From IMG/VR virus record IMGVR_UViG_3300028840_003061, positions 1-61,837 of that record: a stretch of DNA of 61,837 nucleotides. One strand, 5' to 3'. Made by a program: the position numbers and the translations under genes. The stretch is from a virus. This document shows positions 5,219 to 37,755 of this stretch, piece by piece (position 1 is the first letter of the stretch; each line of letters starts with the position of its first letter). Under the pieces are notes generated by a model, which was not told the origin of the DNA, made no database searches, and saw nothing but the letters and a program-made list of their open reading frames with translations.

Positions 5219-5240
5219 CATGATGACCTCCTTAGTTTGG

Positions 5241-5270
5241 CCCGGTAGAAATACCGGGTTTTTTGTTTTT
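5241..5270 (+). terminator. strong rho-independent terminator
   Basis: CCCGGTA, a GAAA tetraloop and TACCGGG (5241-5258) form a perfect 7-bp stem, followed by TTTTTTGTTTTT. It ends the operon coming from 61273 and separates it from the sigma-70 promoter that begins five bases later. Confidence 0.93.
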
Positions 5271-5274
5271 ATAG

Positions 5275-5304
5275 TTGACATACTGTGATGATAGTTGATA
5301 TATT
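5275..5304 (+). promoter_or_regulatory. sigma-70 promoter for structured RNA 1
   Basis: TTGACA (5275-5280), an 18-base spacer and TATATT (5299-5304). The expected start is about G5311, the first base of the closing stem of the RNA that follows. It sits directly behind the terminator, as expected for an independent unit. The promoter at 18433 has the same boxes and spacing and a similar TGTG-x-TG-x-TA spacer. Confidence 0.88.
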
Positions 5305-5310
5305 ATATTT

Positions 5311-5531
5311 GTAGGACGGTGCTGGAAGCTGTGGTTTGCGCCCTTTGATTAGGTTTAAAAGTAGGACAATTTAGCGCACTTACTTTGTTGAATAAATAGG
5401 CTGTTACAGTCCAACAAAAGGCCACTGGAGAAGCACAGAAAGATTGGGCACAGTCAACCGAAGCCTAGGTAGTAGGGAAGACCTTTCGATAGCCGCCGAC
5501 TATCATTGCCAGAGTAGCGACTGGCTCCTAC
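5311..5531 (+). ncRNA. structured RNA 1, paralogue of the RNA at 59987..60152
   Basis: This gene-free stretch starts at the expected transcription start and closes on itself: GUAGGA (5311-5316) pairs with UCCUAC (5526-5531). GUGCU (5319-5323) pairs with AGCAC (5432-5436). Further hairpins are UGCGC/GCGCA (5337-5341 with 5374-5378), a 7-bp stem from UUUGUUG to CAACAAA, GAUAG/CUAUC (5488-5504), and GCCAG/CUGGC (5508-5525) with an AGUAGCGA loop. The block TGCCAGAGTAGCGACTGG and the GGAAGCTGT motif near the 5' end recur in the second RNA. The closing stem is followed by ACTTTTT and then by the strong ribosome binding site of the gene at 5554. It could be an independent RNA or a cis-acting leader. 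I recognise no known family. Confidence 0.75.
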
Positions 5532-5553
5532 ACTTTTTATTAAGGGAGAGAGG

Positions 5554-5784
5554 GTGAAAAGAAGCGAGATGTTACATAAAATAAAAGAACATTATATGTT
5601 AGGAACGATTTACAAAACAGAGCCGGATAGATTCGCTGAAATTGTTTTAGATGCTATTGAGGAATCTGGTATGTTGCCCCCGTTAGCTAAAAACCCAAAT
5701 CCGACAGGAGGATGTTTATGTACTCTAAGGGAGTCTTGTTATAATTGCGGAGGCGGTAATGAATGGGAGCCTGAAGATGGTTAG
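5554..5784 (+). CDS. small Cys-rich protein of the MKRSEM...GMLPP type
   Basis: A 76-residue protein starting at GTG behind AAGGGAGAGAGG, 22 bases after the closing stem of structured RNA 1. It opens with KRSEM and has a central helix ending ESGMLPPL. A second copy of this pattern is encoded at 59373. The C-terminal part here is distinct: a Gly/Cys segment (CLCTLRESCYNCGGG) that could bind zinc. The RNA, this gene and the following membrane genes share one promoter. The function is unknown. Confidence 0.7.
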   Translation: MKRSEMLHKIKEHYMLGTIYKTEPDRFAEIVLDAIEESGMLPPLAKNPNPTGGCLCTLRESCYNCGGGNEWEPEDG

Positions 5785-5917
5785 TATGTTTTTTATGGTA
5801 TTAGGTACTTTCACTTCTTCAATAGTGATTACCGCTATTTTAGAGGAAGATCCGTGGTCTGCGTTTGCTTTTATTGTATTATCTGGTATACTGTTTTTTA
5901 TGGGATGTAACACATGA
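5777..5917 (+). CDS. small two-segment membrane protein
   Basis: A 46-residue protein with hydrophobic stretches at about residues 4-21 and 29-44, separated by EEDPW. It overlaps the preceding gene by 8 bases and the following one by ATGA. The packing and composition support a real small membrane protein. The role is unknown. Confidence 0.55.
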   Translation: MVSMFFMVLGTFTSSIVITAILEEDPWSAFAFIVLSGILFFMGCNT

Positions 5918-6060
5918 AGCTAAATTTATTTTTTCTTTTAATTAATAGTATTTTCTTTTCTATTTTTTTAAGTTATGGTAGTATATTAGTTATACCTTAT
6001 GCGGTTATTATTTTTGTAATAATTAATGATATTGTTAATAAGTTGGAGGACAAGAGTTGA
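5914..6060 (+). CDS. small hydrophobic membrane protein
   Basis: A 48-residue protein that is almost entirely hydrophobic, with two likely membrane segments and a short charged tail (VNKLEDKS). The start overlaps the previous stop as ATGA, and its stop overlaps the primase-helicase start as TGATG. Small membrane genes in early operons are often host-takeover factors, but that is inference only. Confidence 0.55.
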   Translation: MKLNLFFLLINSIFFSIFLSYGSILVIPYAVIIFVIINDIVNKLEDKS

Positions 6061-8072
6061 TGTATAGAAGGCTGGTCAAAGGGTTAAATCAAAAAGGGGA
6101 ACTAATTCCGTATACTGATAATATATATGATCATGTTACTAATCTTAAAAAGGATCATTATTTAAGTGTGTGTCTGTATAATGAAAAGCAAAGAGAGCGC
6201 TTCTACACCCCTATTGAAAAAACTAATATAGATACCGGAGAGGTATATAAAACCATTAATGGTGCTGCCGGTATTGATGATGTTGTTACGGATAAGTTGG
6301 TATTTGATTTTGATGTGAAGGATGGTAACTTAGAAGCAGCTAGAAAAGATACCTTAGAGGTTATTGCTAGATTAAACTCATATGGCGTAGAGTCTGATGA
6401 CATTGAGATTACTTTTTCGGGAAATAAAGGCTTTGGTCTTGTTGTAAATCTAGATGAAAGTATTACTCCAGATGAGCATAAAGATATGGCACTTGGAATT
6501 GCTGGAGATTTAGATACAACGGATTTCGTAATATACAACCCCTCTAGGGTACTAAGAGTTCCTTGTACAAAACATCAAGATAGTAAACTATTCAAAACTT
6601 ACCTTAGTTCCGATGAACTGAAAACGGCATCTATAGATGACATTAAACAATGGTCAAAAGAAGAGTTTATTCCAGACGATGCAATAAGCTTTCCGAAAAT
6701 TAAATTGCCGAAAGAGATTAAGGCGTTTAAGAATAAAAAAGAAGTACCAAAAGAAACTGTGGAGTTTGGTACTGAAAATCTTTACGATAAGATATGTACA
6801 CTTGATTTTAGTAAAAAGCCTAAGTGGTTGTCGCATTGGAAATATGCGTTGAGTAATGGGTATTTCCCATCCGGCATGCGCAACTACTCTCTTTTAATTC
6901 TTGGGGCAACCTATGCTGGACAGGGGTTCAATAAAGCCACGACATATCGAATGCTAAAAGGAGCTGCAGAATTACAAAGCGAAAGGTTTGGCCAAGATAG
7001 ATTTCCCGATGAAGAGATCTGGAAAAATATTATCGGACAGATATATGGAGGTAGTTGGACTGGGGGAACATATTCCGAGGATAATTTTCCAGAAGAGCTT
7101 CAACAGTATCTAGACGATTTGGGAATCGAAAGAACCCCTTCTGATGACGATGATAATAGATTAGTTGAGGTATTGGGAGAAGGGTTTGATGTTTTTGCAG
7201 AATATGCAAGAACTATAAATGAACATACTATAAAAACTGGGATACATCCTCTAGACGAAAAACTAAAAATACGTGCAGGTCATTTAGTGTTTATCTTAGC
7301 ACCCCCTTCTGTGGGAAAGACAAGCGCGTTGGTATCTATATTAAACCATACTAGCAAAATGGGAATACAGTCATATTTCTCAAGTTTAGACATGTACAGA
7401 CTAGAAGTATATAAGAAATTAATACAAAAACATACCAGAATGTCCGAGGACCAAATATTTGATGCATTTGTTAAAGGGGATGTAGAATTAATCACTAGAT
7501 TTAGAAATATATTAAAAGAAGAGTATGAAAATGTTAACTTGTCTTATAAATCTGGAGAATCGGTTAGTGATATGAGGAGATCTATTGAAAGCATTGAAGC
7601 GAAGACTGGTAAAAAAATTGATTTGGTTGCGGTAGATTATTTAGAGTTGGTACTAACAGAAGCGGGAGATCCAACTGCAGCAACCGCAGAGGCGGCTCAG
7701 AAGCTAAGAGAGTTAGCAAATGAAGGTAGAGTTGTGATATGTCTACTTCAGCCCAATAAACATAACTCTCATCCAAATGAACCCATTACTAGCTTTAATG
7801 GAGCAAAAGGATCTTCAAGTATTGCACAAGCATGTTCCGCCTTCCTGACGTTGCATAGGCCAGGTATGGATTCAACTAACGATAACGTAGATGATAATTT
7901 TATGGGAATAAATTGTGTAAAAAATAGAAACGGTCCTTTGTTCAGTTTGGATTTAGCGTGGGATGGGAAAACACAAACTATTTCAGAGTTAGATGATTCT
8001 GGAAGAGCTGAATTAAAAAGACTAAGGCAGAGACAAAAGGAAGAAAAAGAACAAGATGATGGGTGGTTGTAA
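6060..8072 (+). CDS. primase-helicase: AEP-like primase fused to a DnaB-type helicase
   Basis: The start chosen is ATG 6060 (TGATG overlap, GGAGG upstream); a TTG one codon earlier is possible. The N-terminal half looks like an archaeo-eukaryotic primase: the metal motif LVFDFDVKD (about residues 80-88), then FSGNKGFGLVV, the S-G-x-K-G-F motif, then LRVPCTKHQ, which resembles the nucleotide-binding segment of that fold. The C-terminal half is a RecA-type SF4 helicase: Walker A APPSVGKTS (about residue 418), Walker B IDLVAVDYLEL, and the arginine-rich C-terminal motifs expected in DnaB-like proteins. Classical T7 gp4 uses a TOPRIM primase instead. The protein should unwind DNA and prime the lagging strand for the polymerase at 9690. 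Confidence 0.85.
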   Translation: MYRRLVKGLNQKGELIPYTDNIYDHVTNLKKDHYLSVCLYNEKQRERFYTPIEKTNIDTGEVYKTINGAAGIDDVVTDKLVFDFDVKDGNLEAARKDTLEVIARLNSYGVESDDIEITFSGNKGFGLVVNLDESITPDEHKDMALGIAGDLDTTDFVIYNPSRVLRVPCTKHQDSKLFKTYLSSDELKTASIDDIKQWSKEEFIPDDAISFPKIKLPKEIKAFKNKKEVPKETVEFGTENLYDKICTLDFSKKPKWLSHWKYALSNGYFPSGMRNYSLLILGATYAGQGFNKATTYRMLKGAAELQSERFGQDRFPDEEIWKNIIGQIYGGSWTGGTYSEDNFPEELQQYLDDLGIERTPSDDDDNRLVEVLGEGFDVFAEYARTINEHTIKTGIHPLDEKLKIRAGHLVFILAPPSVGKTSALVSILNHTSKMGIQSYFSSLDMYRLEVYKKLIQKHTRMSEDQIFDAFVKGDVELITRFRNILKEEYENVNLSYKSGESVSDMRRSIESIEAKTGKKIDLVAVDYLELVLTEAGDPTAATAEAAQKLRELANEGRVVICLLQPNKHNSHPNEPITSFNGAKGSSSIAQACSAFLTLHRPGMDSTNDNVDDNFMGINCVKNRNGPLFSLDLAWDGKTQTISELDDSGRAELKRLRQRQKEEKEQDDGWL

Positions 8073-8521
8073 TGAAAAAAGTAGAATATACTAATTTCGG
8101 GAAAACAAAGTTAGTGCCGCATGTTACTTATACTGGAGGGGAAGTCGATAACCCACCTAAAGATAAGTGGGATGATGAATTATGGATAGGAAGAGGAGAA
8201 GATTGGTATGCTCTTTCGCATTATAGTCGAAATAATAAAACTGTTCTTATTGTAAAAAGGAACGATTTTATTGCAGCCGAAGAAACTAAAGATAGTAAAA
8301 TGGCTGGACTAGAAAAACGCCTGGAGGCCATTAATCGGAAAATAAAAAATGATAAATTTGATGTGGAGTTAGCTAGAAGAGAATGGCAAAAAGAACATGA
8401 ATATCTATTGGATAATAAATATGAAATAGAAAAAGAACTAAGAAAATTAAATGGCGATTTTGATAGAGTACTTGGTGACTTTGTTAACGAACTCACTAAA
8501 GAAGATGATTGGGACTTATAA
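8072..8521 (+). CDS. hypothetical protein with C-terminal coiled coil
   Basis: A 149-residue protein read from the ATG that overlaps the helicase stop (TAATG). Residues 1-70 look like a small beta-rich domain (WIGRGEDWYALSHY). Residues 75-140 form a long Lys/Glu/Arg coiled coil ending KEDDWDL. The position after primase-helicase suggests a replisome accessory, unproven. Confidence 0.6.
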   Translation: MKKVEYTNFGKTKLVPHVTYTGGEVDNPPKDKWDDELWIGRGEDWYALSHYSRNNKTVLIVKRNDFIAAEETKDSKMAGLEKRLEAINRKIKNDKFDVELARREWQKEHEYLLDNKYEIEKELRKLNGDFDRVLGDFVNELTKEDDWDL

Positions 8522-8760
8522 TGATTAATGAAAAAGCAACCAAGATGCTAAATGAATTACGTAAATCTCATGAATGGTGCTGTATTAAGTTAGTATCGGA
8601 TTATTGTTATGTATGGAATGTTGTGTTAACAAGAGGACATCCACATAATGATGATCATAAGCCCACAATATGGGGCATGTCTTGTGAAGATATTAATGAA
8701 GCAATAGAAAGTGCATATAATCAAGCTATAGAATATTTGGAGAAAGAAGATGAAAACTGA
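8521..8760 (+). CDS. hypothetical protein
   Basis: A 79-residue protein starting at ATG in a TAATG overlap with the previous stop. It contains paired aromatic and cysteine residues (EWCCIKLVSDYCYVW) and ends in an acidic helix. It overlaps the next gene. The pattern W-x-W near SYNQAIEYLE is seen in small phage proteins, but I can assign no function. Confidence 0.55.
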   Translation: MINEKATKMLNELRKSHEWCCIKLVSDYCYVWNVVLTRGHPHNDDHKPTIWGMSCEDINEAIESAYNQAIEYLEKEDEN

Positions 8761-8962
8761 AGAACAAGAAATCAAAGAAACAATCGAATTACTAAGAAAA
8801 AAGCCAAATAACCCAATCTTAATGGAGCTAGAAGATGGGGAATACATCTTATCTCCACGCAAAATATTTGATGATCTGGTAAGTGAAGTGAATGCCTCTC
8901 GTATTAAAAACATGGGAGAAACTGGTGAAGCTACGCTAATTACTATTGGAGAAGAAAGTTGA
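8750..8962 (+). CDS. hypothetical acidic small protein
   Basis: A 70-residue, Glu-rich, helical protein starting at ATG behind GGAGAAAGAAG and overlapping both neighbours. It contains LMELEDGEYILSPRKIFDDLV. No family is recognised. Confidence 0.55.
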   Translation: MKTEEQEIKETIELLRKKPNNPILMELEDGEYILSPRKIFDDLVSEVNASRIKNMGETGEATLITIGEES

Positions 8963-9249
8963 AAACATTGGAAGAATGTGTTAAGATATACCAAGAAACT
9001 GGTGTTTATATTCTGGATGCGTATATGCATGAAAATAAATATATACTAGAGAATATACAAGATATATTTGACGAATATGTAGAAGAAGCAGAAAATCACA
9101 GCACCCCCTTTTATCTACACGTTCTCCAGAGAATTAGCGATTGGCAAATAGATGTTGGGTTTGGAAAAGAAATAGAAGTAACAGAAGATATGTCTTTTGA
9201 AGATGTAATTGAGGTAATATTAGACGATGAAACTGAAGAATATCATTAA
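8959..9249 (+). CDS. hypothetical acidic protein
   Basis: A 96-residue protein with a TTG start in a TTGA overlap, ribosome binding site GGAGAAGAAAG. It is rich in Glu, Asp and Tyr, mostly helical, and overlaps the lipoprotein gene by 23 bases. The function is unknown. Confidence 0.55.
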   Translation: MKTLEECVKIYQETGVYILDAYMHENKYILENIQDIFDEYVEEAENHSTPFYLHVLQRISDWQIDVGFGKEIEVTEDMSFEDVIEVILDDETEEYH

Positions 9250-9703
9250 ACTACTAGGCTATTTTGCTCAGGGATATTTACTGGCATTGGGCGTTTTTTA
9301 TGGAACAGGATGCAGTTCTGTACCAATTAAAACTGAGAGAACCTTCTATCCTTATATGATACAATTTGCTAATATAACTGGAGTAAATAAAACCAACCTA
9401 AAAGAAACAAAGATCCAGTTTAGACCAAGAGAAGGGGCGACTGTTGGTACTTGTAATTGGTTTCATAACTATATACTGGTTGACCCATTATACTGGTTTG
9501 ATCAAGCAACAGAGCCGGAAAGAGTGGCGCTTATGTGGCACGAGTTAGCCCATTGTGTGTGTTATGCTGGCCATAAAGAAGGACATTTTAGCGATGGGTG
9601 CCCTAGACACATAATGAATCCCATTTTACCTGGGGATAGTTGTATGAGAAAACACGAAGAAACGTACCGAGAAGAACTAAGGAACGCTTGTGCTGGGTAT
9701 TAA
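9227..9703 (+). CDS. putative zinc metalloprotease lipoprotein
   Basis: A 158-residue protein. The N-terminus has two Lys, a hydrophobic stretch and GTGCSS, a plausible lipobox with Cys near residue 29, so the mature protein should be membrane-anchored outside the cytoplasm. A zinc-binding WHELAHC motif (HExxH, about residues 105-110) follows, then a further His and SDGCPRHIMNP, which resembles metzincin-like loops. A second HELAH protein is encoded at 56809. An envelope-located peptidase inside the replication operon is unexpected. It may modify the host surface, but the catalytic role is inferred from the motif alone. Confidence 0.7.
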   Translation: MKLKNIIKLLGYFAQGYLLALGVFYGTGCSSVPIKTERTFYPYMIQFANITGVNKTNLKETKIQFRPREGATVGTCNWFHNYILVDPLYWFDQATEPERVALMWHELAHCVCYAGHKEGHFSDGCPRHIMNPILPGDSCMRKHEETYREELRNACAGY

Positions 9704-12581
9704 TCCTGATAAAGATGGTGTTGACCATATTAATGTTTACTCTAAAGGTAAAACAGAATTGGGCAGGTTACTGACCAATTTCGCTAAAACTCCATTTGTT
9801 CACCCCAAGTATGGAGAGTTTTCTTCAATAGAGGCATTGTGGTATTGGTTGTCATGTAAAGAAGATAAACTGAGACCACTACATGGATTCCAAGCAAAAA
9901 AAGTTGGTAGAGAATGTGGGGGCGAGGATTGGGTAGATGATGAGGAATTCAAAAAAACAATCATAGAAGGAATTGCTTGTAAATTAGAACAAAATCCCGA
10001 TATATTAAAACTATTAAAAAATAATACCTTACCATTAAAACATTATTATAATTACAACGGAAAAGTAGTTGAACCAAAAAACGGAAAATGGGTACTTGAT
10101 TACTTAGAAACCTATTGTGGAGATCCTGAAGAGTATATTATAGATTCTAAAGAATCAGCTGAGGAGTTTTTAGATTTTGCTAGTAGTATTCCAGTTAGCG
10201 AACAAGTAAGTCTAAAAGATAATGTTATTACTATCGGTAGTTATGGTAAGTTTGAGGTAGAGAAAGAGTATGGCTATGTGTTGGATAGGTGGAGGGACAC
10301 TTCTCCTATAAAAAAGAATTATAAAATAGTAACTAATATAGAGCTATTTAATGAATTTAATTCTTATATTGATAAGCATGGTCTATTAGCCTTTGATACA
10401 GAAACAACCGGGTTAAATGTTAGAAAAGACCGCGTAATAGGATTTTCTATATCTGGGAAATCTGGGGATGGGTATTACTATCCCATGTATACCTGGAACA
10501 AAGAAGAGCGGGCCCTAAATCCCGTAGAACCAAATCTAAGCAAAGCAAAATCAGTACTAAGTAAACTGTGTAACAAAAAATTAATTACTTGGAACGGATC
10601 ATTTGACACTAGAGTAGTTAAAAATAACTTAGGTATAAACTTAATAAATTCTATATATATTGACGGCATGTTATTAAAACACCTCCTACAAGAAGAGGGG
10701 CCTTTTGGACTAAAGCCCACAGGAATAGAACTTCAATCAGAAATAGGATTGGATGTAGAAGAAGAGGCTAATAAAGAGCAAATAGAACTTAAAGAAAACA
10801 TAGAAACCAATGGTGGATCTGCAACAAAAAGTAATTATGAAATGCATAAAGCAGATCTTGATGTTCTAGGAAAATACGCCGCAGCAGATGCAGACCTAAC
10901 TTATAGAATAGTAGAGTATTACACTAAAGAACTGGAGAGACAGGACTTAACAGAATTCTTTTTTGAAGAAGAAGTAATGCCGTTATATAAAGAAGTAACT
11001 ATACCAATGGAAGATAATGGAGTGTCTTTAGATATGCCGTTATTAGAGTCTACAAAAGAAGAAATAGAAAACGACATCAAAAAACTAGAGGGGTCTATAG
11101 TAGAGGAGCTTTTTAAACTAGATGATGTCTATGACTGGTATACTAATTCAGTAGAAGCTTCTATAGACGAGACGCCTAGAGGAAAATATGCCCAAGGAGT
11201 TGTAGAGTTTTTTAAATTGGATTTACCTAAAACAGCTTCTGGTAAATATAGTACGTCTAAAAAGAATATAGAACAGTTACAAGACAGTGAGGCCAAAGAG
11301 TTCTTCTTAGGGAACATAAATGGATTTAATCAGGAAGTCCAGTTTTCTATAAAAGAAAAGATATATCTAAAAGAGAACGAAGGAAAGAAGATAAATATAT
11401 CATCAAAAAAACAAATGTCAGAAGTAGTATTTGATTATATGGGAATCAAACCTTTATCTAAAACAGACAAAGGATCTCCTCAATTTAATGACAAAATGAT
11501 AGAGTGGTTAGAGGATAATGATCACAAGTGGGCCAAGTTACTTCATGATTATAATAAGCTAATAAAAATAAGAGGGGCATATGTAGATAGGTTTTTGGAT
11601 AATAACGAAGACGGTAAGTATTACTTTTCTTATAAACAGCATGGGACTATTAGCGGAAGATATGGTTCAGATGCCCAACAATTGCCACGCCCGTTAGAAG
11701 AAGGTCAGGAGTCGGAACTAGTAACTAAATATACTAATAGAATAAGAAGGTTTTTTATATCTGAAGAAGGTAGGATTTTTATAGACTCAGACTATGAGAG
11801 CTTAGAGCCTCATGTATTTGCGCATGTTTCAGGAGACCCTGGTTTAATATCCATTTTTAATAAAGGACATGATTTTTACTCAACTATCGCTATTGCTACT
11901 GAGAAGTTAGAGGGAGTTAGTGCTGATAAAAAAGCGGATAATTATCTAGGTAAGGTAGATAAGCAGAAAAGACAACTAGCAAAAGCATATGCCCTTGGCG
12001 TTCCATATGGGATGGGACCTTATGCGCTTGGAAAAACCTTGGGAATAGAGACAGAGGACGCAGAAGATTTGATAGATGGATATTTATCAGCTTATCCTAA
12101 GCTAAAAGAGTGGATGGATAGTTCCAAAGAAATGGCACAAAAAGAGGGTCATGTTAGATCTGAGGCCGGAAGAATAAGGCATTTGCCAAAAGTAAAAGAA
12201 ATTTACAAAAGGCATAAGGATAACTTGATGGATTTCAAATATCGTGCTAGGCTAAATAAGAAGTTCGGAAAAGAAGTAGTACTTGAAAAGTACAGGGATT
12301 ATAAAAACGGAATAAACAACAGCAGGAATTACCAAATACAATCAATGTCGTCAAGTATAGTAAATAGAGCAGCTATAGCAGTTAATAGAGAGTTTAAAAA
12401 AAGGGACATAGGTGGATGGTGTTGTGCCCAAATCCACGACCAGCTAATAGCAGATGTGCCCTTAGATAGATCTAAAGAGGCTAAGGAGATAATGAAGTAT
12501 TGCATGGAGAATACTACAAAATTATCATTAGACCTAAAAGCGCCACCAGAACTGGCTATTAATTGGAATGAGGGGCATTGA
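9690..12581 (+). CDS. family A DNA polymerase with N-terminal NADAR-like domain
   Basis: A 963-residue replicative polymerase starting at GTG behind AAGGA. Residues 12-150 resemble NADAR (YbiA/DUF1768) proteins: INVYSKG, LLTNFAKTPF, a conserved Glu in SSIEALWYW, then KKVGRE, ACKLEQNPDILKLL and KWVLDYL. NADAR enzymes hydrolyse ADP-ribose N-glycosides. The 3'-5' exonuclease follows, with the DTET motif at about residue 236 and later Asp motifs (WNGSFDTRV; YAAADADLTYRI). The polymerase domain has motif A DSDYESLEP (about 699), motif B (RQLAKAYALGVPYG) and motif C HDQL (about 916). The fusion is continuous, with no stop or start between the domains. The polymerase call is firm; the NADAR call is by eye. 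Confidence 0.93.
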   Translation: MLGINPDKDGVDHINVYSKGKTELGRLLTNFAKTPFVHPKYGEFSSIEALWYWLSCKEDKLRPLHGFQAKKVGRECGGEDWVDDEEFKKTIIEGIACKLEQNPDILKLLKNNTLPLKHYYNYNGKVVEPKNGKWVLDYLETYCGDPEEYIIDSKESAEEFLDFASSIPVSEQVSLKDNVITIGSYGKFEVEKEYGYVLDRWRDTSPIKKNYKIVTNIELFNEFNSYIDKHGLLAFDTETTGLNVRKDRVIGFSISGKSGDGYYYPMYTWNKEERALNPVEPNLSKAKSVLSKLCNKKLITWNGSFDTRVVKNNLGINLINSIYIDGMLLKHLLQEEGPFGLKPTGIELQSEIGLDVEEEANKEQIELKENIETNGGSATKSNYEMHKADLDVLGKYAAADADLTYRIVEYYTKELERQDLTEFFFEEEVMPLYKEVTIPMEDNGVSLDMPLLESTKEEIENDIKKLEGSIVEELFKLDDVYDWYTNSVEASIDETPRGKYAQGVVEFFKLDLPKTASGKYSTSKKNIEQLQDSEAKEFFLGNINGFNQEVQFSIKEKIYLKENEGKKINISSKKQMSEVVFDYMGIKPLSKTDKGSPQFNDKMIEWLEDNDHKWAKLLHDYNKLIKIRGAYVDRFLDNNEDGKYYFSYKQHGTISGRYGSDAQQLPRPLEEGQESELVTKYTNRIRRFFISEEGRIFIDSDYESLEPHVFAHVSGDPGLISIFNKGHDFYSTIAIATEKLEGVSADKKADNYLGKVDKQKRQLAKAYALGVPYGMGPYALGKTLGIETEDAEDLIDGYLSAYPKLKEWMDSSKEMAQKEGHVRSEAGRIRHLPKVKEIYKRHKDNLMDFKYRARLNKKFGKEVVLEKYRDYKNGINNSRNYQIQSMSSSIVNRAAIAVNREFKKRDIGGWCCAQIHDQLIADVPLDRSKEAKEIMKYCMENTTKLSLDLKAPPELAINWNEGH

Positions 12582-12606
12582 CATTAAACTAAAAATATGA
12601 TAGTAT
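12578..12606 (+). promoter_or_regulatory. sigma-70 promoter within the end of the polymerase gene
   Basis: TTGACA (12578-12583), a 17-base spacer and TAGTAT (12601-12606) overlap the polymerase stop. It would restart transcription for the genes from 12625 onward. Confidence 0.6.
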
Positions 12607-12624
12607 AAATAATTGGAGGAACAA

Positions 12625-12807
12625 GTGAGTAAATACAAAGATTTAACGGAAGTCCTGGAAGTAGGGAAGTCCAAATATTACGATGATGATGATGTTTTTG
12701 ATCTTAAAGAGCGCATAATCGAACTTGAAAATATTATCGAACAAGCAAAAGATGAGCTTCTTAAGTATGTAGATGAAGATGTTGTTGAGGAGATATTTGG
12801 TGAGTAA
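12625..12807 (+). CDS. hypothetical coiled-coil protein
   Basis: A 60-residue acidic protein. The start is taken at GTG 12625 behind TTGGAGGA; the in-frame TTG at 12613 lies inside the ribosome binding site itself. An Asp run (YYDDDDVFD) precedes a Leu/Ile/Glu coiled coil. It is the first gene after the internal promoter. The function is unknown. Confidence 0.55.
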   Translation: MSKYKDLTEVLEVGKSKYYDDDDVFDLKERIIELENIIEQAKDELLKYVDEDVVEEIFGE

Positions 12808-12970
12808 TGTTGAAAATTATCGTTCTATAATGCAAGAAAGGGACAGAGTTAGACTAGAAGAAGTCGCTCTACGAATCTATTGCGCAAAAGATTTGTCTAT
12901 TGAAGAAAGTATCATTGTGGCTAAAAAATTCATTCGTGCTATGGACGCAGAAAAGCGGGAGATAAAATGA
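12800..12970 (+). CDS. hypothetical small helical protein
   Basis: A 56-residue protein. GTG 12800 behind GAGGAG is preferred over an upstream ATG at 12773 that would overlap the previous gene by 35 bases. It is Arg/Glu-rich and mostly helical, with IEESIIVAKKFIRAMD. It overlaps the next start by ATGA. No family is recognised. Confidence 0.5.
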   Translation: MSNVENYRSIMQERDRVRLEEVALRIYCAKDLSIEESIIVAKKFIRAMDAEKREIK

Positions 12971-14160
12971 GTTATACTGACGAACAGGTAAAATATATTA
13001 AAGAACTTCGTAATAGCGGATTAGAGTGGCAAGAAGTTGCGGATGCGTACAATGAACGGTATCCTACTATTGGAGATCCCAAGACACCTACCGCTATCCG
13101 AAAGACTTACTCTCGGTATAGAGATGATGATATTTCCGATGAGACTTTGGTTAAGAACATTACGACTACTTATAGCGCTAGAAAAGCGGCTAGTAAATTA
13201 CGTAAAGAAAATAAAGCTTTGATAGAAAGCGGCCTTATGGTTGAGCATTATATAACTGCAGTAAAAGAAGCAGTTAAAGATATTAAACCAATAAAGGTTA
13301 AAAAAAGAAAAAAAACAAAAGGTAAAAATATGACTATTGAACTTTTGTTTAGTGACATCCAGATAGGTAAAATCACACCTTCGTATAATTCCGAAGTAGC
13401 TCGTTTAAGGATAATCGAGTATGCTAGAGCCGTTATTTTTAAAATTGAACAACACATTGCTAGCGGTTATAACGTAGAAAAGATAGTACTTGCTATTTTA
13501 GGCGATATTATAGAAATGTCAGAAAAGCACTACGATTCTATGCGAGCAACAGATCACGGAACACCAGAACAAATCAGAATGGCTATTCAGTATATTCATA
13601 ACTATGTAATCATTCCTCTTGCTGAACTAGGAATTGATATGGATGTAGTTTGTATTACTGGTAATCATAGTAACGCCCAGGGCGGTATTAAATCTCATGA
13701 TCCTGGAAAAGAGCATTTATCATGGCCAATCTACCACGCTCTAGATATGTTAAGTAAATCTAGTGGCTTTAAGCATGTAAAATTTGATATCCCAATCGGA
13801 GCGTTTACTACTTATAAAATATATGGATCAACCATTTTATACGAACATGGGTGTGGTATTACTGTAACTGATTCAGGTATGAAAGCCCACGCATCAAAAC
13901 GATCGTTGCAGAGGGGCGAGTTTATTGATTTTATAAGAATCGGAGACAGGCATCAGATACAACAATTTTCTGGAGGAAGGTATATTGTTAACGGAGCTAT
14001 GTTTAGCGCTGACGGAGAAGGGCGGGAATATAGTAGTATAAAGGGATATTCTAGCTATGCAGAACAATTAATGCTTTGTTATGTAGAGAGAGAAGAGGGA
14101 GATCCTCGTTCCCCATTATATGATTCGTTTACGGTGCAACTAGAACACATCGGAGAATAG
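12967..14160 (+). CDS. metallophosphoesterase with N-terminal DNA-binding domain
   Basis: A 397-residue protein. The first 60 residues resemble a homeodomain-like or resolvase-type helix-turn-helix (TDEQVKYIKELRNSGLEWQ, then IRKTYSRYR). After a Lys-rich linker, the calcineurin-like fold shows LFSDIQIGK (D-x-Q where D-x-H is usual), LGDIIEMSE, ITGNHSN, YEHGCG and a late GDRHQ. These are the metal ligands of Mre11/SbcD-like phosphoesterases. Phage members are thought to act as nucleases or phosphatases on DNA. The fused HTH suggests DNA targeting. It ends two bases before the ClpP-like gene. Confidence 0.8.
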   Translation: MSYTDEQVKYIKELRNSGLEWQEVADAYNERYPTIGDPKTPTAIRKTYSRYRDDDISDETLVKNITTTYSARKAASKLRKENKALIESGLMVEHYITAVKEAVKDIKPIKVKKRKKTKGKNMTIELLFSDIQIGKITPSYNSEVARLRIIEYARAVIFKIEQHIASGYNVEKIVLAILGDIIEMSEKHYDSMRATDHGTPEQIRMAIQYIHNYVIIPLAELGIDMDVVCITGNHSNAQGGIKSHDPGKEHLSWPIYHALDMLSKSSGFKHVKFDIPIGAFTTYKIYGSTILYEHGCGITVTDSGMKAHASKRSLQRGEFIDFIRIGDRHQIQQFSGGRYIVNGAMFSADGEGREYSSIKGYSSYAEQLMLCYVEREEGDPRSPLYDSFTVQLEHIGE

Positions 14161-14161
14161 T

Positions 14162-14785
14162 GTGGCAAACGAACTTAAGGTTGATGATATATCGCACTTT
14201 CATGCGCACGATCTACATATACCAACTAGAACTCTCTGGATGGGAAGCCTAAGTGTAGACGAGGAAGGAAACCAAAGCGGTACGGATATTCATATGGCAG
14301 AGAGATTAGTAAAGAACTTGCACGTTCTTGAGATTGCCTCTGATAAGGCAGAGGACCCGATTGTAATCCTTATGGAGAACCCAGGAGGAAATTGGGATGC
14401 CGGAATGACAATTTATGATGCTATACATGCATGTAAGAATCATGTTACTATTGTTTGTTTTGGAGAGGTAATGAGCATGGGATCTATTATACTTCAGGCT
14501 GCAGACGAAAGGATTATGGCACCTAACTCTGAGATGATGATACATTATGGAGAGGACGGGTTCTTTGGAGATCCGAAATCCTTTATGAATTGGGCAAAAA
14601 GATCTGAAAGACTTCGTACTAAAATGGAAGATATCTACCTAGAAAAGATGAAAGAAAAGGATGGATCAAAGAATCGCAGACACATAAAAGCTCTGCTTGA
14701 TGAAGATACTATATTAACCCCAGAATTAGCAATTGAATTGGGGCTCGCGGATAAAATATTAGTAAATATAAAGGACATATACTAA
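14162..14785 (+). CDS. ClpP-like serine protease (cytoplasmic)
   Basis: A 207-residue member of the ClpP/SDH superfamily. NPGGNWDAGMTIYD matches the ClpP NSPGG strand. The nucleophile Ser lies in EVMSMGS (about residue 105), the His in MMIHYG (about 128), and an Asp in the GLADKI segment could complete the triad. There is no signal peptide, so it should act in the cytoplasm. In phages such enzymes can be prohead proteases, but this one sits in the early arm, far from the capsid genes, so host protein turnover or regulation is equally possible. The start is GTG. Confidence 0.85.
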   Translation: MANELKVDDISHFHAHDLHIPTRTLWMGSLSVDEEGNQSGTDIHMAERLVKNLHVLEIASDKAEDPIVILMENPGGNWDAGMTIYDAIHACKNHVTIVCFGEVMSMGSIILQAADERIMAPNSEMMIHYGEDGFFGDPKSFMNWAKRSERLRTKMEDIYLEKMKEKDGSKNRRHIKALLDEDTILTPELAIELGLADKILVNIKDIY

Positions 14786-15027
14786 TGAATAATTTTATTC
14801 TTTGGGCTGGAGCATTATTGCTTTCATATTGCGGATTACCTCTACTTATCGAAACAATACACGATGGACATGCTGATGGGGTTTCCTTAAGCTTTTTGTT
14901 GATGTGGTATATTGGTGAAATTTTAATGCTAATAGGGACTTTCAAATTAAAAAATAAACCCTTGACTTTTAATTACGGATTGAATACTATAATGATAAGT
15001 ATTATTTTATGGTATAAGGTGTTTTAG
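14785..15027 (+). CDS. PQ-loop (SemiSWEET-like) membrane protein
   Basis: An 80-residue protein with three membrane segments. The first and second flank GLPLLIETIHDGHADGVSLS, which matches the PQ-loop pattern (Pro followed by an acidic loop, then Gly-Val-Ser-Leu-Ser) of SemiSWEET transporters. Those proteins work as dimers and pass small sugars. It overlaps both neighbours. The fold is recognisable; the substrate is not. Confidence 0.65.
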   Translation: MNNFILWAGALLLSYCGLPLLIETIHDGHADGVSLSFLLMWYIGEILMLIGTFKLKNKPLTFNYGLNTIMISIILWYKVF

Positions 15028-15254
15028 TGAGTAGTTTACAAGAGTTTCATAAAATGTTAAAAAAAGAAAGGTCAAAGGTTCTAGATAAAGAGTATCCCGG
15101 TAGTATAGGAGATCTTCAAGATCAATTATCGGAGCTTAAAGAGCAGGTAGAGTCTATAGAAAAAAAGATAAGCGGTTTACGCCAAGTAGAAAAAGATCTA
15201 GATGCAGCAATAAAAGGAGCGGAGAGAATTCTTCATGAAAGGGGATTAAGTTAA
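15027..15254 (+). CDS. hypothetical coiled-coil protein
   Basis: A 75-residue protein starting at GTG in a TAGTG overlap. From about residue 25 onward it is a regular Leu/Ile/Glu/Lys coiled coil. It resembles in design the small coiled-coil proteins at 15815 and 17247. The function is unknown. Confidence 0.55.
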   Translation: MSSLQEFHKMLKKERSKVLDKEYPGSIGDLQDQLSELKEQVESIEKKISGLRQVEKDLDAAIKGAERILHERGLS

Positions 15255-15814
15255 TGTTTAAAATAGATGATATTGTATATGACTCTAAGGATCGAGTTGG
15301 AGTTATCGTAAACAAAAATAATGATAATACTGTCTTTAGAGTTCAATATGACCCAGATACAATTGAACCGATGGGTATAGGGGATATTTGGGGCCATCAA
15401 ACATTAAATGATATTACCAAAGAAAGTAAACAAAAAGTTATCGACTCTATTTGTGGACCACTCAGAGTTGACCTAAGAACACCTTCTGAGAAGCCACCAG
15501 AGGCCCTTGGCACGAAGTTTAACCAAGGTAAGGCAATGCTCCATTTAGTACCAGAAGAGGCTATTATAGGGGCTGCTGAGGGCTTTATGTACGGTGCTGG
15601 TAAGTATGGGGCTTTTAACTATAAAAAAGGGCTAACGTATACGGATCTAACTGACTCATTAAGAAGACACACTTTGGCATTACTCATGGGAGAGGATATT
15701 GACGAAGAATCTGGACTACATCATACTAAGTTAATTTTAGCAAACGCTTCTATGCTTGAGTGGATGAGATGTAATAGACCAGATATGGATAACAGATGGA
15801 AGAAGGAGGAATAA
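15254..15814 (+). CDS. dATP/dGTP diphosphohydrolase-like protein (DUF5664)
   Basis: A 186-residue protein. Residues 1-60 form a small domain of unknown type (SH3- or Tudor-like by look). Residues 75-180 match the DUF5664 domain: GTKFNQGKAMLHLVPEEAI, EGFMYGAGKYGAFNYKKGL, LRRHTLALLMGEDIDEESG and LILANASMLEW. This domain, in the MazG-like all-alpha group, includes the dATP diphosphohydrolase (MazZ) of phages with modified adenine. No PurZ-like gene is visible here, so a pool-adjusting role is more likely than base replacement. Confidence 0.8.
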   Translation: MFKIDDIVYDSKDRVGVIVNKNNDNTVFRVQYDPDTIEPMGIGDIWGHQTLNDITKESKQKVIDSICGPLRVDLRTPSEKPPEALGTKFNQGKAMLHLVPEEAIIGAAEGFMYGAGKYGAFNYKKGLTYTDLTDSLRRHTLALLMGEDIDEESGLHHTKLILANASMLEWMRCNRPDMDNRWKKEE

Positions 15815-16051
15815 TTGCCAGAATCAGTAATTAGACAACTTAAGAATGAGCTTGACAAGCTAGACCACGATGTGCTAGAATCTCCATTAGGTAAAGCTAG
15901 AGCAGATGTAGAAAAGTATGAAAAGTTTTTAAAAATAGCAAAAGAATCTGTTAGGAAATTAGAAGAAAGAAAAGAGTCATTGATTATGGCAATAAAAATT
16001 TTGGAGGAAACAAGTGAGTCAGAAGAAAGTAAAGATAAAGAAACTACATGA
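15815..16051 (+). CDS. hypothetical coiled-coil protein
   Basis: A 78-residue protein with a TTG start behind AAGGAGGA, directly after the previous stop. It is an almost continuous heptad-like helix, and its end overlaps the dUTPase gene by 38 bases. No family is recognised. Confidence 0.55.
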   Translation: MPESVIRQLKNELDKLDHDVLESPLGKARADVEKYEKFLKIAKESVRKLEERKESLIMAIKILEETSESEESKDKETT

Positions 16052-16448
16052 AAACGCAGTAATTCCAGCTCAAGCTTATGAGGGGGATGCTGGGATTGAT
16101 TTAACTGCGGTTAGTTTTGAGAGAGACAGAACTGGGTCTTTAATGTATGGGACCGGGCTAGCTATCCAAGTTCCAGAAGGACACGTTGGTTTACTGTTTC
16201 CTAGAAGTAGTATTTATAAAAAAAGAGTATCTCTGTCCAATTCTGTAGGGGTTTTGGACTCTGGATACCAAGGAGAAGTTAAGTTTATTTTTAAACCAGG
16301 AACAGCTGGTTTAGGTAGGTATGAAATCGGAGATAGAATCGGACAACTTGTAATTGTAGAACTGCCTAAATATGAACTAGAAGAAGTTGAGGATTTTGGA
16401 GTAGGTACAGAAAGAGGCCAGGGTGGATTCGGTTCAAGCAACGGTTAG
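16014..16448 (+). CDS. dut: dUTPase
   Basis: A 144-residue trimeric-type dUTP diphosphatase with all five motifs in order: DAGIDL (about residue 25), PRSSI, GVLDSGYQGEVKF with the catalytic Asp, GDRIGQLVI, and RGQGGFGSSNG at the C-terminal end. It converts dUTP to dUMP, supplying ThyX and keeping uracil out of DNA. The start is GTG behind TTGGAGG inside the preceding gene. Confidence 0.95.
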   Translation: MSQKKVKIKKLHENAVIPAQAYEGDAGIDLTAVSFERDRTGSLMYGTGLAIQVPEGHVGLLFPRSSIYKKRVSLSNSVGVLDSGYQGEVKFIFKPGTAGLGRYEIGDRIGQLVIVELPKYELEEVEDFGVGTERGQGGFGSSNG

Positions 16449-16449
16449 T

Positions 16450-16650
16450 ATGAATAAAACTCTACAAGCATTCGATTTTACTATACCAGATAAAGAGCTT
16501 AGGCTTAAAGATCTTCATAATGAAATTCGTATAGCTGCAGAGTTTTTAAGAGACCCAAGTATTAGGGAAAACGAAACAGTAGTTAAAGAGTTAGTAGATT
16601 ATATTAACAGATGCATGGATTTACTCAAAGAAAACGGTCTTGGGCAATAG
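16450..16650 (+). CDS. hypothetical protein
   Basis: A 66-residue helical protein starting at ATG one base after the dUTPase stop; an earlier in-frame start at 16423 would lie inside dut. It contains LHNEIRIAAEFLRDPS and CMDLLKENGLGQ. The function is unknown. Confidence 0.5.
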   Translation: MNKTLQAFDFTIPDKELRLKDLHNEIRIAAEFLRDPSIRENETVVKELVDYINRCMDLLKENGLGQ

Positions 16651-16658
16651 GAGATAGT

Positions 16659-16967
16659 ATGTGTTTAATATATAACGGAGTAAACACCGACAACATACCA
16701 AGCAGAGTATTAGATTTAATCATACATTTTCATCCTAGCGAAAATTGCGGATGGGATTTAAAAATATCGGAAAGTGATATAGATTTAATCATAAGGGAAT
16801 TTCCATATCTAGACACATACAAGAAAGATGAGCAACATATGGCTGAGATGAAAACTGAAATGTCACTAGAACACAGCCACATCTACTATAAGTATATGTA
16901 TGAAAACATAAAAGAAGAGAATGGCATTATGTATGATAAAATCCAAGAACTGGCGAGAAGTGTATGA
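16659..16967 (+). CDS. hypothetical protein
   Basis: A 102-residue protein starting at ATG 16659 behind ATAGGAGA; an earlier start at 16611 would overlap the previous gene by 40 bases. It has a possible metal-binding spread of His and Cys (IHFHPSENCGW) and a helical C-terminal half. It overlaps the next gene by ATGA. No family is recognised. Confidence 0.5.
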   Translation: MCLIYNGVNTDNIPSRVLDLIIHFHPSENCGWDLKISESDIDLIIREFPYLDTYKKDEQHMAEMKTEMSLEHSHIYYKYMYENIKEENGIMYDKIQELARSV

Positions 16968-17272
16968 GTGACGATAACATTATAGATTTTTCTAAAATAA
17001 AAGAAGAGAATACTGATTTTGGAGACGATATTGAAGCTCGTATTATGTCATGCATCTATAAAGGAGAGTCTTGTCAATGTAAGTACTGTTCTTACAAAAA
17101 AGGAGCTGCAGAGATGGTGCTGGAGTTTCTAGCTAAAGATATGGCTATGTATACTAAACGCTTGGGAGGAGAGTTCGTTACATACGATGCCAAAGATATC
17201 CTATTTCGCAGTATAAGATTGGTTAAGGAAATGGAGAAAGAGAAGTTTGGCGACCCAGAAAAGAAGGACTAG
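16964..17272 (+). CDS. hypothetical protein with Cys cluster
   Basis: A 102-residue protein. A compact cluster CQCKYCSYKKG (about residues 36-46), with another Cys shortly before, suggests a small zinc site. The rest is helical and charged. It overlaps both neighbours. The function is unknown. Confidence 0.55.
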   Translation: MSDDNIIDFSKIKEENTDFGDDIEARIMSCIYKGESCQCKYCSYKKGAAEMVLEFLAKDMAMYTKRLGGEFVTYDAKDILFRSIRLVKEMEKEKFGDPEKKD

Positions 17273-17492
17273 AAGAAGCTCTCTTGATGTCCAAAAAGAA
17301 AAAGTAAAAGAGCTTAGGGGTAAAAACAGCGAGCTAGAAAAACGAGTTAGGAATTTAGAGAAACGGATACTGACCTTAGAAAAGCGCATAGATAAGCTGG
17401 TTCCAAAAAAGACATATAAAACTAAAAAGGCAGAAGAGAGGGCCAAGATGCTTGAAAAGTTTCACCCTGATAATTATAAGGACGAGGTATGA
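17247..17492 (+). CDS. basic coiled-coil protein
   Basis: An 81-residue protein with a TTG start overlapping the previous gene. An Arg-rich N-terminus (KRRTRRSS) precedes a Leu-zipper-like segment (LEKRVRNLEKRILTLEKR). It could bind nucleic acid, but this is inferred from charge alone. Confidence 0.5.
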   Translation: MATQKRRTRRSSLDVQKEKVKELRGKNSELEKRVRNLEKRILTLEKRIDKLVPKKTYKTKKAEERAKMLEKFHPDNYKDEV

Positions 17493-17884
17493 TCCATACA
17501 ATTTCAGTTCCTTTATATATAGAGCTTCCAAGAAAGACAATGGCCCCTAAACGATATCACTTAAACTTAAACGTATACCGAAATCTTCACTACCAAGTCA
17601 ACAATAACCTAAAGAAAGCTTATAAAAAAATAGTAGAGCCTATGTTAAAAGGTACTTGCTTTTCTACTCCTCTTAAGCTAACATTAGTATTATATCCACC
17701 AGATAAGCGTAGAAGAGATAGGTCTAATGTGCTTGTTGTTCAGGAAAAGTTCTTTATGGATGCGCTAGTAGAGCTTGGGCACATTCCAGATGATAACGAT
17801 AATTACGTAGTATCTACTACATATTTATCTGGTGAAGTAGACAAAGAGAATCCCAGAGTAGATATTATAATTGAGGAGATATAA
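17489..17884 (+). CDS. RusA-like Holliday junction resolvase
   Basis: A 131-residue protein matching the RusA family: an N-terminal basic segment (LNLNVYRNLHYQVNN), the acidic catalytic site around KRRRDRSNVLVVQEKFFMDAL, and the trailing LGHIPDDNDNYV. RusA cleaves four-way junctions as a dimer, which fits the nuclease and annealase earlier in the operon. Length is typical. It overlaps neighbours at both ends. Confidence 0.82.
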   Translation: MIHTISVPLYIELPRKTMAPKRYHLNLNVYRNLHYQVNNNLKKAYKKIVEPMLKGTCFSTPLKLTLVLYPPDKRRRDRSNVLVVQEKFFMDALVELGHIPDDNDNYVVSTTYLSGEVDKENPRVDIIIEEI

Positions 17885-18408
17885 TGCATTTAATGATTGA
17901 TTTAGAAACATTAGGAACTGCTCCAAATAGCCCAATACTTTCTCTAGGTGCTGTTTTATTTGACAAAACTGGGGTAAAAAGTACATACTATTTAGTATTT
18001 AATCTAGATGAACAATTAAATAATGGCAGAATTCCAAGCGCATCTACTATAAAATGGTGGATGTCACAATCCGCTTCTTCCCAGGAAGTCTTTGAAAATG
18101 ACGGAGATCCTTGTTCTGAAAAGATTTTGGACTTTGTTAATTGGCTGGAAGAAGAAGTTAGTGATCTAGGAACCATGAGAGTCTGGGGCAATGGCTCTAG
18201 CTTTGATGTCACAATATTAGAGCATATGATGGATCAGTACAATCTAACCCCTCCCTGGAAATTCTGGAATATTAGAGACTTCCGTACATTTAGAGAGTTT
18301 GTATACGATAATCCAGGTATTGAGCGCGTTGGAACATATCACAATGCGTTAGATGATGCTACTACTCAGGCCAATTTAATAATTGAATATTTACAAAAAA
18401 CTAAATAA
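17884..18408 (+). CDS. DEDD-family 3'-5' exonuclease
   Basis: A 174-residue protein of the exonuclease VIII/Rv2179c-like group. Motif I is IDLETLG, motif II is in SFDVTILEHM, and motif III is HNALDDATTQA with the H-x4-D of DEDDh enzymes. Metal-dependent 3'-5' cleavage of DNA or RNA is expected. It closes the operon that runs from 12625, and a strong promoter follows. Confidence 0.85.
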   Translation: MHLMIDLETLGTAPNSPILSLGAVLFDKTGVKSTYYLVFNLDEQLNNGRIPSASTIKWWMSQSASSQEVFENDGDPCSEKILDFVNWLEEEVSDLGTMRVWGNGSSFDVTILEHMMDQYNLTPPWKFWNIRDFRTFREFVYDNPGIERVGTYHNALDDATTQANLIIEYLQKTK

Positions 18409-18432
18409 TTGTCTATTTTTTATACAATTTAC

Positions 18433-18462
18433 TTGACATATATTGTGCTGGTATGTTATATT
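18433..18462 (+). promoter_or_regulatory. sigma-70 promoter for the exported ClpP-like gene
   Basis: TTGACA (18433-18438), an 18-base spacer and TATATT (18457-18462) lie in the gap 18409-18496. Boxes and spacing equal the promoter at 5275. The upstream TTTTTTATAC is not part of a clear hairpin. Confidence 0.85.
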
Positions 18463-18496
18463 GTTATTTATTAGCAATATTAACACAAGGGAAAAT

Positions 18497-19312
18497 ATGA
18501 AATACATCTTAAGTTTACTTCTTTTTATGGGCACCTTTGCTATGACAGCCAAGGAAAAAGCTGATATTGTTCTAACAAAAGACAATACCGTAGTTTTAAA
18601 CGATACAGTTAACTGGGATAGTATCTCAAAAGTGTCTATGGACTTACTCTTATTGTCTACTAGAGTTCCAGAGGATCAACCAATTTATTTATTCCTATCG
18701 ACTCCAGGAGGCTCAGTATTAGCTGGCTCTGCTTTTATTGAGGTATTAAAGCATATCCCCCAAGAAGTACATACAATCACCTCTTTTGCTGCTAGTATGG
18801 GTTTTTCTATTGTACAAGCATCTGATAAACGCATTATCCTAGAAACAGGAACTCTTATGTCCCACAGAGCATCTCTTGGTGGTCTAGAGGGCCAATTAGA
18901 TGGGGAAATCGAAACCAGAATTAGGTACTATAAAGATATTACTAATATCTTAAATAAAGAGGCGGCAAATAGAATGGGACTATCTCTCGGAAAGTACAAG
19001 AGATTGATAAACCGAGAATATTGGGCTGTAGGTAATAAAGCCGTATCTCAGGGTGCTGCGGATAAGGTTGCGTCTGTTACCTGCTCTTTGGACCTACTGA
19101 CTTCACATAATATTCAGAAAGTAAGAACTTTGTTTGGGGCTATAGAGCTTAAGTTCTCAAACTGCCCATTAATAGTCTCTCCTATTGAAGTAATCGAACC
19201 TACAGAGAAGAAAAAAACCAATAAACTTGCTAGAGACTATGTAAACCTACTATTTAACAACAAGACTACTTTCATTAATAGATACATCAAGACTGGCATT
19301 TTCAACAGATGA
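18497..19312 (+). CDS. exported ClpP-like serine protease
   Basis: A 271-residue protein read from ATG 18497 behind AAGGGAAA; an earlier in-frame ATG at 18443 lies inside the promoter. Residues 1-18 (KYILSLLLFMGTFAMTA) look like a Sec signal peptide. The SDH/ClpP fold shows LSTPGGSVLAGS, then AASMG with the nucleophile Ser near residue 100 and LMSHRA with the His near 123. The fold recalls ClpP or NfeD/SppA-type proteases. Its own promoter and export signal set it apart from the cytoplasmic copy at 14162. Substrates may be envelope proteins. Confidence 0.82.
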   Translation: MKYILSLLLFMGTFAMTAKEKADIVLTKDNTVVLNDTVNWDSISKVSMDLLLLSTRVPEDQPIYLFLSTPGGSVLAGSAFIEVLKHIPQEVHTITSFAASMGFSIVQASDKRIILETGTLMSHRASLGGLEGQLDGEIETRIRYYKDITNILNKEAANRMGLSLGKYKRLINREYWAVGNKAVSQGAADKVASVTCSLDLLTSHNIQKVRTLFGAIELKFSNCPLIVSPIEVIEPTEKKKTNKLARDYVNLLFNNKTTFINRYIKTGIFNR

Positions 19313-19734: not shown

Positions 19735-19747
19735 ATTTAATCTTAAA

Positions 19748-26406: not shown

Positions 26407-26407
26407 A

Positions 26408-26743: not shown

Positions 26744-26744
26744 A

Positions 26745-28403: not shown

Positions 28404-28435
28404 TTTACTAGTCTCCTACTATAGTTTGCTTCTTT

Positions 28436-28449
28436 ATTAGTTGTTAATT
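28436..28449 (-). promoter_or_regulatory. late-gene element AATTAACAACTAAT
   Basis: On the minus strand the motif AATTAACAACTAAT overlaps the stop of the gene at 28444 and stands about 35 bases before the TTG start at 28403. It matches the TTTAACAACTA consensus found ahead of other late genes. Confidence 0.45.
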
Positions 28450-33077: not shown

Positions 33078-33089
33078 GGTATCCTCCTT

Positions 33090-34052: not shown

Positions 34053-34062
34053 ATAGCTCTCC

Positions 34063-34323: not shown

Positions 34324-34335
34324 AAAATCTCCATA

Positions 34336-34350: not shown

Positions 34351-34375
34351 TAAAAATATTAAAAAAATCAAATAT

Positions 34376-37727: not shown

Positions 37728-37755
37728 GTTGTATTCCTATGATGGTTAAATAAGG

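Follow-up and report, generated by a model that had tools for sequence, protein, structure and literature searches.

A paralogous, structured RNA family widespread in phages and new as far as the searches reach, with two members in one virus record

The DNA analyzed here over its whole length (the window) comprises 61837 bases and is a virus record of IMG/VR; its genes include those for DNA polymerase, helicase, Erf, portal and terminase. Two RNA elements, named W1 and W2, are located in it, each preceded by a promoter (Table 1). Just ahead of the W1 promoter, a strong intrinsic terminator (CCCGGUA-GAAA-UACCGGG followed by U6, 5229-5266, + strand) separates this promoter from the upstream operon, and a co-directional gene block (5554-20287) runs downstream of W1; its first small ORF (5554-5784, 76 aa) found no match in PHROGs. 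The only ORF led by W2 codes for 74 aa. The strand of W2 also bears an HNH endonuclease gene (60204-60746, - strand; PHROGs E 1e-30), which stops some 50 nt ahead of W2, and a homing endonuclease gene (45809-46486, - strand; PHROGs, one match GIY-YIG) lies within the structural gene block.

Table 1. Coordinates of W1, W2 and their parts in the window.
Feature	Position	Strand	Remarks
W1, family member, long type (P2 arm extended)	5310-5532	+	match of covariance model R2
W1 sigma-70-type promoter	5275-5304	+	TTGACA 5275-5280, 18 nt, TATATT 5299-5304; promoter score 11.2
W1 P1 5' strand UGUAGGA	5310-5316	+	pairs with 5526-5532; P1 covaries across the family
W1 P2a 5' strand GUGCU	5319-5323	+	pairs with 5432-5436
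W1 conserved P2 loop stretch GGAAGC	5324-5329	+	directly after P2a 5' strand
W1 P2b 5' strand GUGG	5331-5334	+	pairs with CCAC 5422-5425
W1 variable inner arm	5335-5421	+	opened by P2b
W1 P2b/P2a 3' strands CCAC-UGGAGA-AGCAC	5422-5436	+
W1 variable middle region	5437-5507	+	unconserved among members
W1 P3 hairpin GCCAG-AGUAGCGA-CUGGC	5508-5525	+	holds the shared block; covarying 5-bp stem
W1 P1 3' strand and terminator-like U-run	5526-5538	+	strand 5526-5532, then UUUUU 5534-5538
76-aa ORF	5554-5784	+	directly 3' of W1, with ribosome-binding site
W2, second family member, divergent long type	59987-60152	-	match of covariance model R2
W2 sigma-70-type promoter	60157-60185	-	TTGACT 60185-60180, 17 nt, TATACT 60162-60157; promoter score 10.5
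W2 P1 5' strand GUCUACGAAA	60143-60152	-	3' strand 59987-59996; 10 Watson-Crick pairs
W2 P2 arm	60070-60141	-	GUGCG 60141-60137 to CGCAC 60074-60070
W2 P2 loop stretch GAAGCU		-	after P2 5' strand GUGCG
W2 P3 hairpin	59997-60013	-	loop AGUAGCGA

A sequence-only reading had taken both elements for members of a new paralogous structured RNA family, on account of shared sequence and compensated helices, and these observations were reproduced. The common block TGCCAGAGTAGCGACTGG has two exact matches, at 5507-5524 (+) and 59997-60014 (-), while 0.02 matches with up to three mismatches would be expected, and GGAAGCTGT and GCACAGA are present in both elements. Likewise, the closing stems are compensated, namely GUAGGA/UCCUAC in W1, where an outer U-A makes it a stem of 7 bp (5310-5316/5526-5532), and GUCUACGAAA/UUUCGUAGAC in W2 (60152-60143/59996-59987), and so are the second stems, GUGCU/AGCAC in W1 (5319-5323/5432-5436) and GUGCG/CGCAC in W2 (60141-60137/60074-60070). 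The promoters were placed correctly as well: they end 5 nt (W1) and 4 nt (W2) ahead of the first paired base. The 3' hairpin P3 formed by the shared block had not been singled out before. Minimum-free-energy folding found W1 no stabler than shuffled sequences (z +0.53) and W2 stabler (z -2.47); thus, the case for a family rests on homologues, as folding alone would have missed it.

The 16-base core of the shared block was found in 22 viral stretches, and the flanks of the core matches revealed a common frame from which two further search patterns were drawn. The 19-base form of the P2 hairpin, GCGUGGAAAGCAGACACGC, occurs exactly in at least 120 viral stretches and CCACUGGAGACACGC in 68; in all, 167 family members from phages were listed. 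Four of the stretches with the 16-base core (L007, L014, L018 and L020) look like chance matches in coding sequence. Among cultured phages, PotUPM1, Persinger, POI1126, D14H and the Orimi/Orisa group carry a copy that is not annotated as RNA, and phages of Pseudomonas and Ochrobactrum are represented. The core consists, in this order, of the closing stem P1, a 2-nt spacer, the P2 arm, a freely variable stretch and the P3 hairpin. P1 is free in sequence and varies in length from 6 to over 20 bp, and the two spacer bases are mostly CG. The commonest form of P2 is GCGUG/CACGC with the conserved loop GGAAAGC: in the short type P2 is mostly GCGUG/CACGC with the loop GAAAGCAGA, and in the long type it is extended by an inner helix GUGG/CCAC, invariant in 26 long-type rows, and by a variable tip. 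The stretch between P2 and P3 varies from about 30 to 200 nt and is barely stabler than its shuffles (mean z -0.47, 60 members). P3 has five pairs and the loop RGU[A/C]GCGN, in the tally of which positions T3, G5 and C6 were fixed by the search pattern, and it abuts the 3' strand of P1 without any spacer. G-U pairs occur in both P1 and P3.

The pairing of P1 was examined in a set unselected for pairing, i.e., 116 distinct occurrences of the 19-mer with enough flanking sequence. A fitting P3 was present within 320 nt in 96 of them, and in 93 of these 96 P1 pairs in exact register at 6 or 7 of 7 positions. Swapping the P1 strands between loci in 200 trials left 10.9 such cases on average and 19 at most. 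Most of the remaining 20 occurrences have, as judged by eye, a P3 that deviates by about one base in loop or stem. Covariation was scored in 45 short-type and 26 long-type rows, which were picked by pairing, so that the share of paired positions is by construction: 13 of 18 pairs were changed on both sides in the short type (score 0.583, as compared to 0.125 after shuffling and no more than 0.09 after sliding) and 13 of 22 in the long type (0.530, as compared to 0.127 and no more than 0.10, respectively). The covariation in further homologues on which the sequence-only reading had made its proposal depend is present, with P1 and P3 doubly compensated across both sets. Several member coordinates stem from a search that required pairing; the bias-free evidence is the register test together with the tests of held-out models.

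For the latter, two covariance models were built, R1 from short-type and R2 from long-type rows, both without the window: loci L023 and L024, which duplicate the window, identical sequences and members cut by locus ends were dropped. R1 recognizes the two window members by their P3 hairpin alone (17.7 and 13.8 bits), and R2 was added for this reason. R2 found W1 at 5309-5533 (63.4 bits, E 3.1e-14) and W2 at 59988-60151 (38.2 bits, E 5.6e-8), with no other match in the window at E up to 10, and both possess the P1, the GGAAAGC-type P2 and the P3 with GU[A/C]GCG loop, in register, that define membership. Among 72 loci given to it, R2 produced 66 matches in 57, of which 26 are its own training rows and some are second copies that no pattern had sought. 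Moreover, it recovered all five cultured-phage members and all six bacterial-genome members given to it, as found by R1, with 34-62 bits. Under strict filters, R1 matched three genomes each among 289 from the class of G002 and among 249 from the genus of G001 (Pseudomonas, as judged from locus L026), and none among 249 from the phylum of G004. Matches of the 16-mer in genome contigs are mostly due to chance, R1 confirming 3 of 36. Only 2 of 10 proteins near the six bacterial-genome members have PHROGs matches, and a prophage placement of all six is not supportable.

No family in the RNA library searched accounts for these RNAs, which is in accordance with the earlier impression. The Rfam 15 library (4227 models) gave no match at gathering threshold in the whole window and, in 37 related loci scanned whole (12, 13 and 12), nothing at the RNA but only tRNA genes outside it. 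A relaxed Rfam scan yielded nothing on W2. The relaxed scan of W1 gave sub-threshold hits that were dismissed as chance, namely lincRNA-p21 on W1 itself, and RybB and anti-hemB, both on the terminator that precedes it. ARAGORN called no tRNA in the window, and none of the Rfam scans of the window and the related loci produced a GOLLD or ROOL covariance-model match. The whole HK022 record was without R1 match, and in its region 26000-40751 R2 gave only a partial fragment of 11.1 bits, i.e., no relation to put RNA was found. The same holds for phage T4: R1 found nothing in the whole record, R2 nothing in 69500-73500, and RNA C and RNA D reached a full-length score of 6.7 bits at best. A blastn comparison of W1 and W2 with phages was without match. 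Matches listed in complete genomes of E. coli proved to be the chromosomal caiA gene, and the best 30 of 38 plasmid records were at chance level (E >= 0.4). The literature searched, including searches for the motifs, held no description of such a family, which is weak evidence of absence as most subscription journals were outside that search. We conclude that this is a paralogous, structured RNA family, new so far as the searches reach and widespread in phages.

The surroundings of many members resemble those of RNA genes. In long-type members a strong sigma-70-like promoter (score of at least 10) ends just before P1 in 7 of 33 cases (0.24% at random) and 11 of 33 have a U-run of at least five no more than 12 nt after P1 (2.4% at random); in an earlier, mainly short-type set of 121 members, a promoter score of at least 8.5 was seen in 13 (2.0% at random) and a U-run of at least five in 7 (0.9% at random). 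Promoter and U-run are thus features of a minority, mostly of the W1 type. Six members lie 1-21 nt from a tRNA gene, always on the same strand and four of them within 4 nt, whereas 0.83 would be expected within 30 nt; it is only this immediate adjacency that is enriched, since within 1.5 kb 11 of 122 members have a tRNA as compared to 8.6 expected. The copy in POI1126 is followed by tRNA-Gln. In that phage, 170 bases between a tRNA and the member (L247 4823-4995) look structured by eye and match neither R1, R2 nor Rfam. In five loci (L079, L006, L087, L091 and L081) same-strand copies stand in tandem, 0-83 nt apart, and some other loci hold, like the window, copies further apart. Two diverged copies at a distance of 0.4-3.6 kb were noted in phage contigs L158, L062, L106, L171 and L175, and in L015 (IMGVR_UViG_2882869191_000002, 5310-5744) the P1 stems of tandem copies, scoring 69.8 and 26.6 bits with R1, share a CTTGATGATG repeat. 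In 145 of 154 members the RNA is richer in G+C than its locus, and from member to member its G+C content varies half as widely as that of the loci. Neighboring genes, taken as the nearest ORFs of at least 110 aa so that small genes were passed over, are diverse: the 61 downstream and 61 upstream neighbors match 99 and 129 PHROGs families, respectively, none of which is met by more than four proteins. A ribosome-binding site with start codon within 40 nt follows 15 of 33 long-type members, W1 included (7.7% at random), so that in those members the RNA and the gene after it probably share one transcript. As judged from sequence, the favored reading is an autonomous RNA gene, with transcription in the W1 type probably continuing into the gene that follows.

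The variable parts contain pieces of tRNA. A canonical T-arm (GTTCRANYC, all five pairs) was present in those of 8 of 167 members (L172, L217, L208, L199, L200, L083, L093 and L089). By the frequency of such arms elsewhere in these loci, after masking of tRNA genes, 0.22 would be expected, and no T-arm was present on the antisense strand of any member. The middle of L217 scored 31.7 bits against the Rfam tRNA model over positions 5-66 of 71, i.e., without the acceptor ends, and in a relaxed scan of its 171 bases this cargo alone topped the tRNA gathering score. In L083 a D-arm was recognized by eye, the Rfam match being limited to a 10-bit T-arm fragment of tmRNA. ARAGORN called 1 of 122 members, L223, as tRNA-Val with a 34-nt intron. 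Beside members, canonical T-arms outside the tRNA calls of ARAGORN were seen in L178 (about 9375), L143 (about 2129) and L015 (about 5799). In tRNA the acceptor is followed by a 2-nt spacer, the D-arm and, later, a 5-bp T-arm stacked on the acceptor without spacer. The family has the same order, with P1 resembling the acceptor, a 2-nt spacer, P2 resembling the D-arm and P3 the T-arm. It differs from tRNA and tmRNA in its P3 loop, RGU[A/C]GCGN and not UUCRANY, in a P1 that is not of 7 bp and in lacking CCA end and anticodon. An identity as tRNA was rejected, given the varying length of P1 (6 to over 20 bp) and the missing CCA end.

Family, core fold, covariation, gene-like context and tRNA-derived pieces are the computed parts of the best explanation, to which we add, by inference, maturation, loop docking, action in trans and a host target. 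With moderate confidence, W1 and W2 are interpreted as two noncoding RNA genes for a stable, trans-acting RNA, most likely a tRNA-like decoy or scaffold. Each copy would be transcribed from its own promoter, its ends would be locked together by P1, and P3 would stack on P1 with the P2 arm beside it. Function would be carried by the conserved P2 loop GGAAAGC and the P3 loop GU[A/C]GCG. The unpaired bases that are best conserved lie in these loops, and for this reason we infer that they meet and form the working face, docking on each other like D- and T-loops; a GC-GC pairing between them, though possible, finds no covariation support, as the loops hardly vary. The docked loops may form a binding face for a component common to many hosts, and the stretch between P2 and P3, plus the P2 tip in the W1 type, would be an exchangeable arm, replaceable by folded pieces including tRNA elbows. 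The tRNA-like order of elements and the captured tRNA pieces, though the latter are seen in only 8 of 167 members, suggest a tRNA-mimicking stable RNA as the most likely role: the mature RNA would act in trans, being taken for a tRNA or showing tRNA-like surfaces to a host factor, and as decoy or scaffold it might engage tRNA processing or translation. Only tentatively do we extend this to a new class of phage RNA, a small scaffold in the shape of a tRNA. Phages would exchange its arms like cassettes, tRNA D/T elbows being taken up repeatedly, and the RNA might be directed in trans, as decoy or adaptor, against a host factor that binds or cuts tRNAs, including defense nucleases that cleave tRNAs. 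If true, this would explain why phages keep several diverged copies per genome.

Alternatively, the RNA might be a cis-acting leader that heads phage transcription units, folds on the nascent transcript and governs read-through past the P1/U-run or later terminators, as the HK022 put RNA does. Consistent with such a leader, W1, W2 and other members have a promoter directly ahead of P1, U-runs come after P1, 15 of 33 long-type members lead straight into a ribosome-binding site, and W1 stands before the long co-directional block (5554-20287). A pair of copies in one genome, each with its promoter, is also reminiscent of putL and putR (PMC9378689). We nevertheless regard it as doubtful: HK022 itself has no R1 match and just the 11-bit R2 fragment in 26000-40751, W2 heads nothing but its short ORF, the copy in Persinger sits between integrase and a convergent gene which it faces, and other copies stand in tRNA or tandem arrays. 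Furthermore, in 101 loci the gene on the same strand as the RNA was no more often the downstream (60) than the upstream one (66), although the ORF calls are noisy. A further possibility, hinted at by the sequence-only reading, is a riboswitch-like sensor, in which a small ligand would bind to the RNA and thereby regulate the gene that follows. Compact conserved loops in a covarying frame would suit it, and the ribosome-binding site that had given rise to the hint, together with a U-run, is indeed found behind many W1-type copies, but ligand control was not established: neighbors are of all kinds, the downstream gene is often on the other strand, and among the 61 downstream neighbors two at most share any one PHROGs family. 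With copies in tRNA and tandem arrays, and arms between the conserved loops that are freely exchangeable, a sensor appears highly unlikely.

That the RNA forms, as GOLLD and ROOL do, a nanocage or homo-oligomeric scaffold with the variable arms as cargo seems unlikely, even though the setting in phages near tRNAs is the same and the GCG of the P3 loop and the GC of the P2 loop are partly self-complementary, as the RNA is several times smaller and has no relation to GOLLD or ROOL by sequence or model. Hardly any weight is given to the possibility that the elements work as DNA, for instance as recombination sites or small mobile elements with inverted repeats. P1 does form an inverted repeat, some copies stand in tandem and one adjoins an integrase gene, but the G-U pairs in P1 and P3, the conserved loops and the single orientation to promoters and U-runs are signatures of RNA, T-arms are confined to the sense strand, and the P1 sequences of W1 and W2 differ.

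The family adds a common and compact member to the few phage RNAs that are conserved in structure but as yet unassigned in function, and it is open to experiment, having members in cultured phages of Pseudomonas and Ochrobactrum. Its captured tRNA pieces tie it to the question of what GOLLD, ROOL and the T4 RNAs C and D do beside tRNA genes. RNAs C and D of T4 are stable RNAs, also known as species 1 and 2. Similar to the family, they are small and encoded beside tRNAs; T4 rnaC (L250 1409-1672, with rnaD) has two occurrences of AGUAGCG, the sequence of the family P3 loop, as well as a perfect T-arm (CCGGGUUCGAAUCCCGG), and CGCUAC, complementary to that loop, stands in a hairpin loop of rnaD, whereas neither RNA fits P1/P2/P3. 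GOLLD is also phage-borne and structured, is often found near tRNAs and sometimes holds tRNAs in a variable linker, but it is larger, with many members over 800 nt (PMC12286853), and of other sequence, and the Rfam library, expected to include it, gave no match. ROOL, phage-borne and often near tRNA islands, differs by its size of 659 nt in one example and its many pseudoknots (PMC12286853), and likewise the family has no Rfam match. HK022 putL and putR are phage RNAs behind early promoters, two per genome, as here, but they comprise about 70 nt and two stem-loops (PMC9378689), and HK022 is without R1 match. Taken all together, the kind is already known, namely a structured phage RNA near tRNAs, and the fold and sequence are, as far as the searches reach, new.
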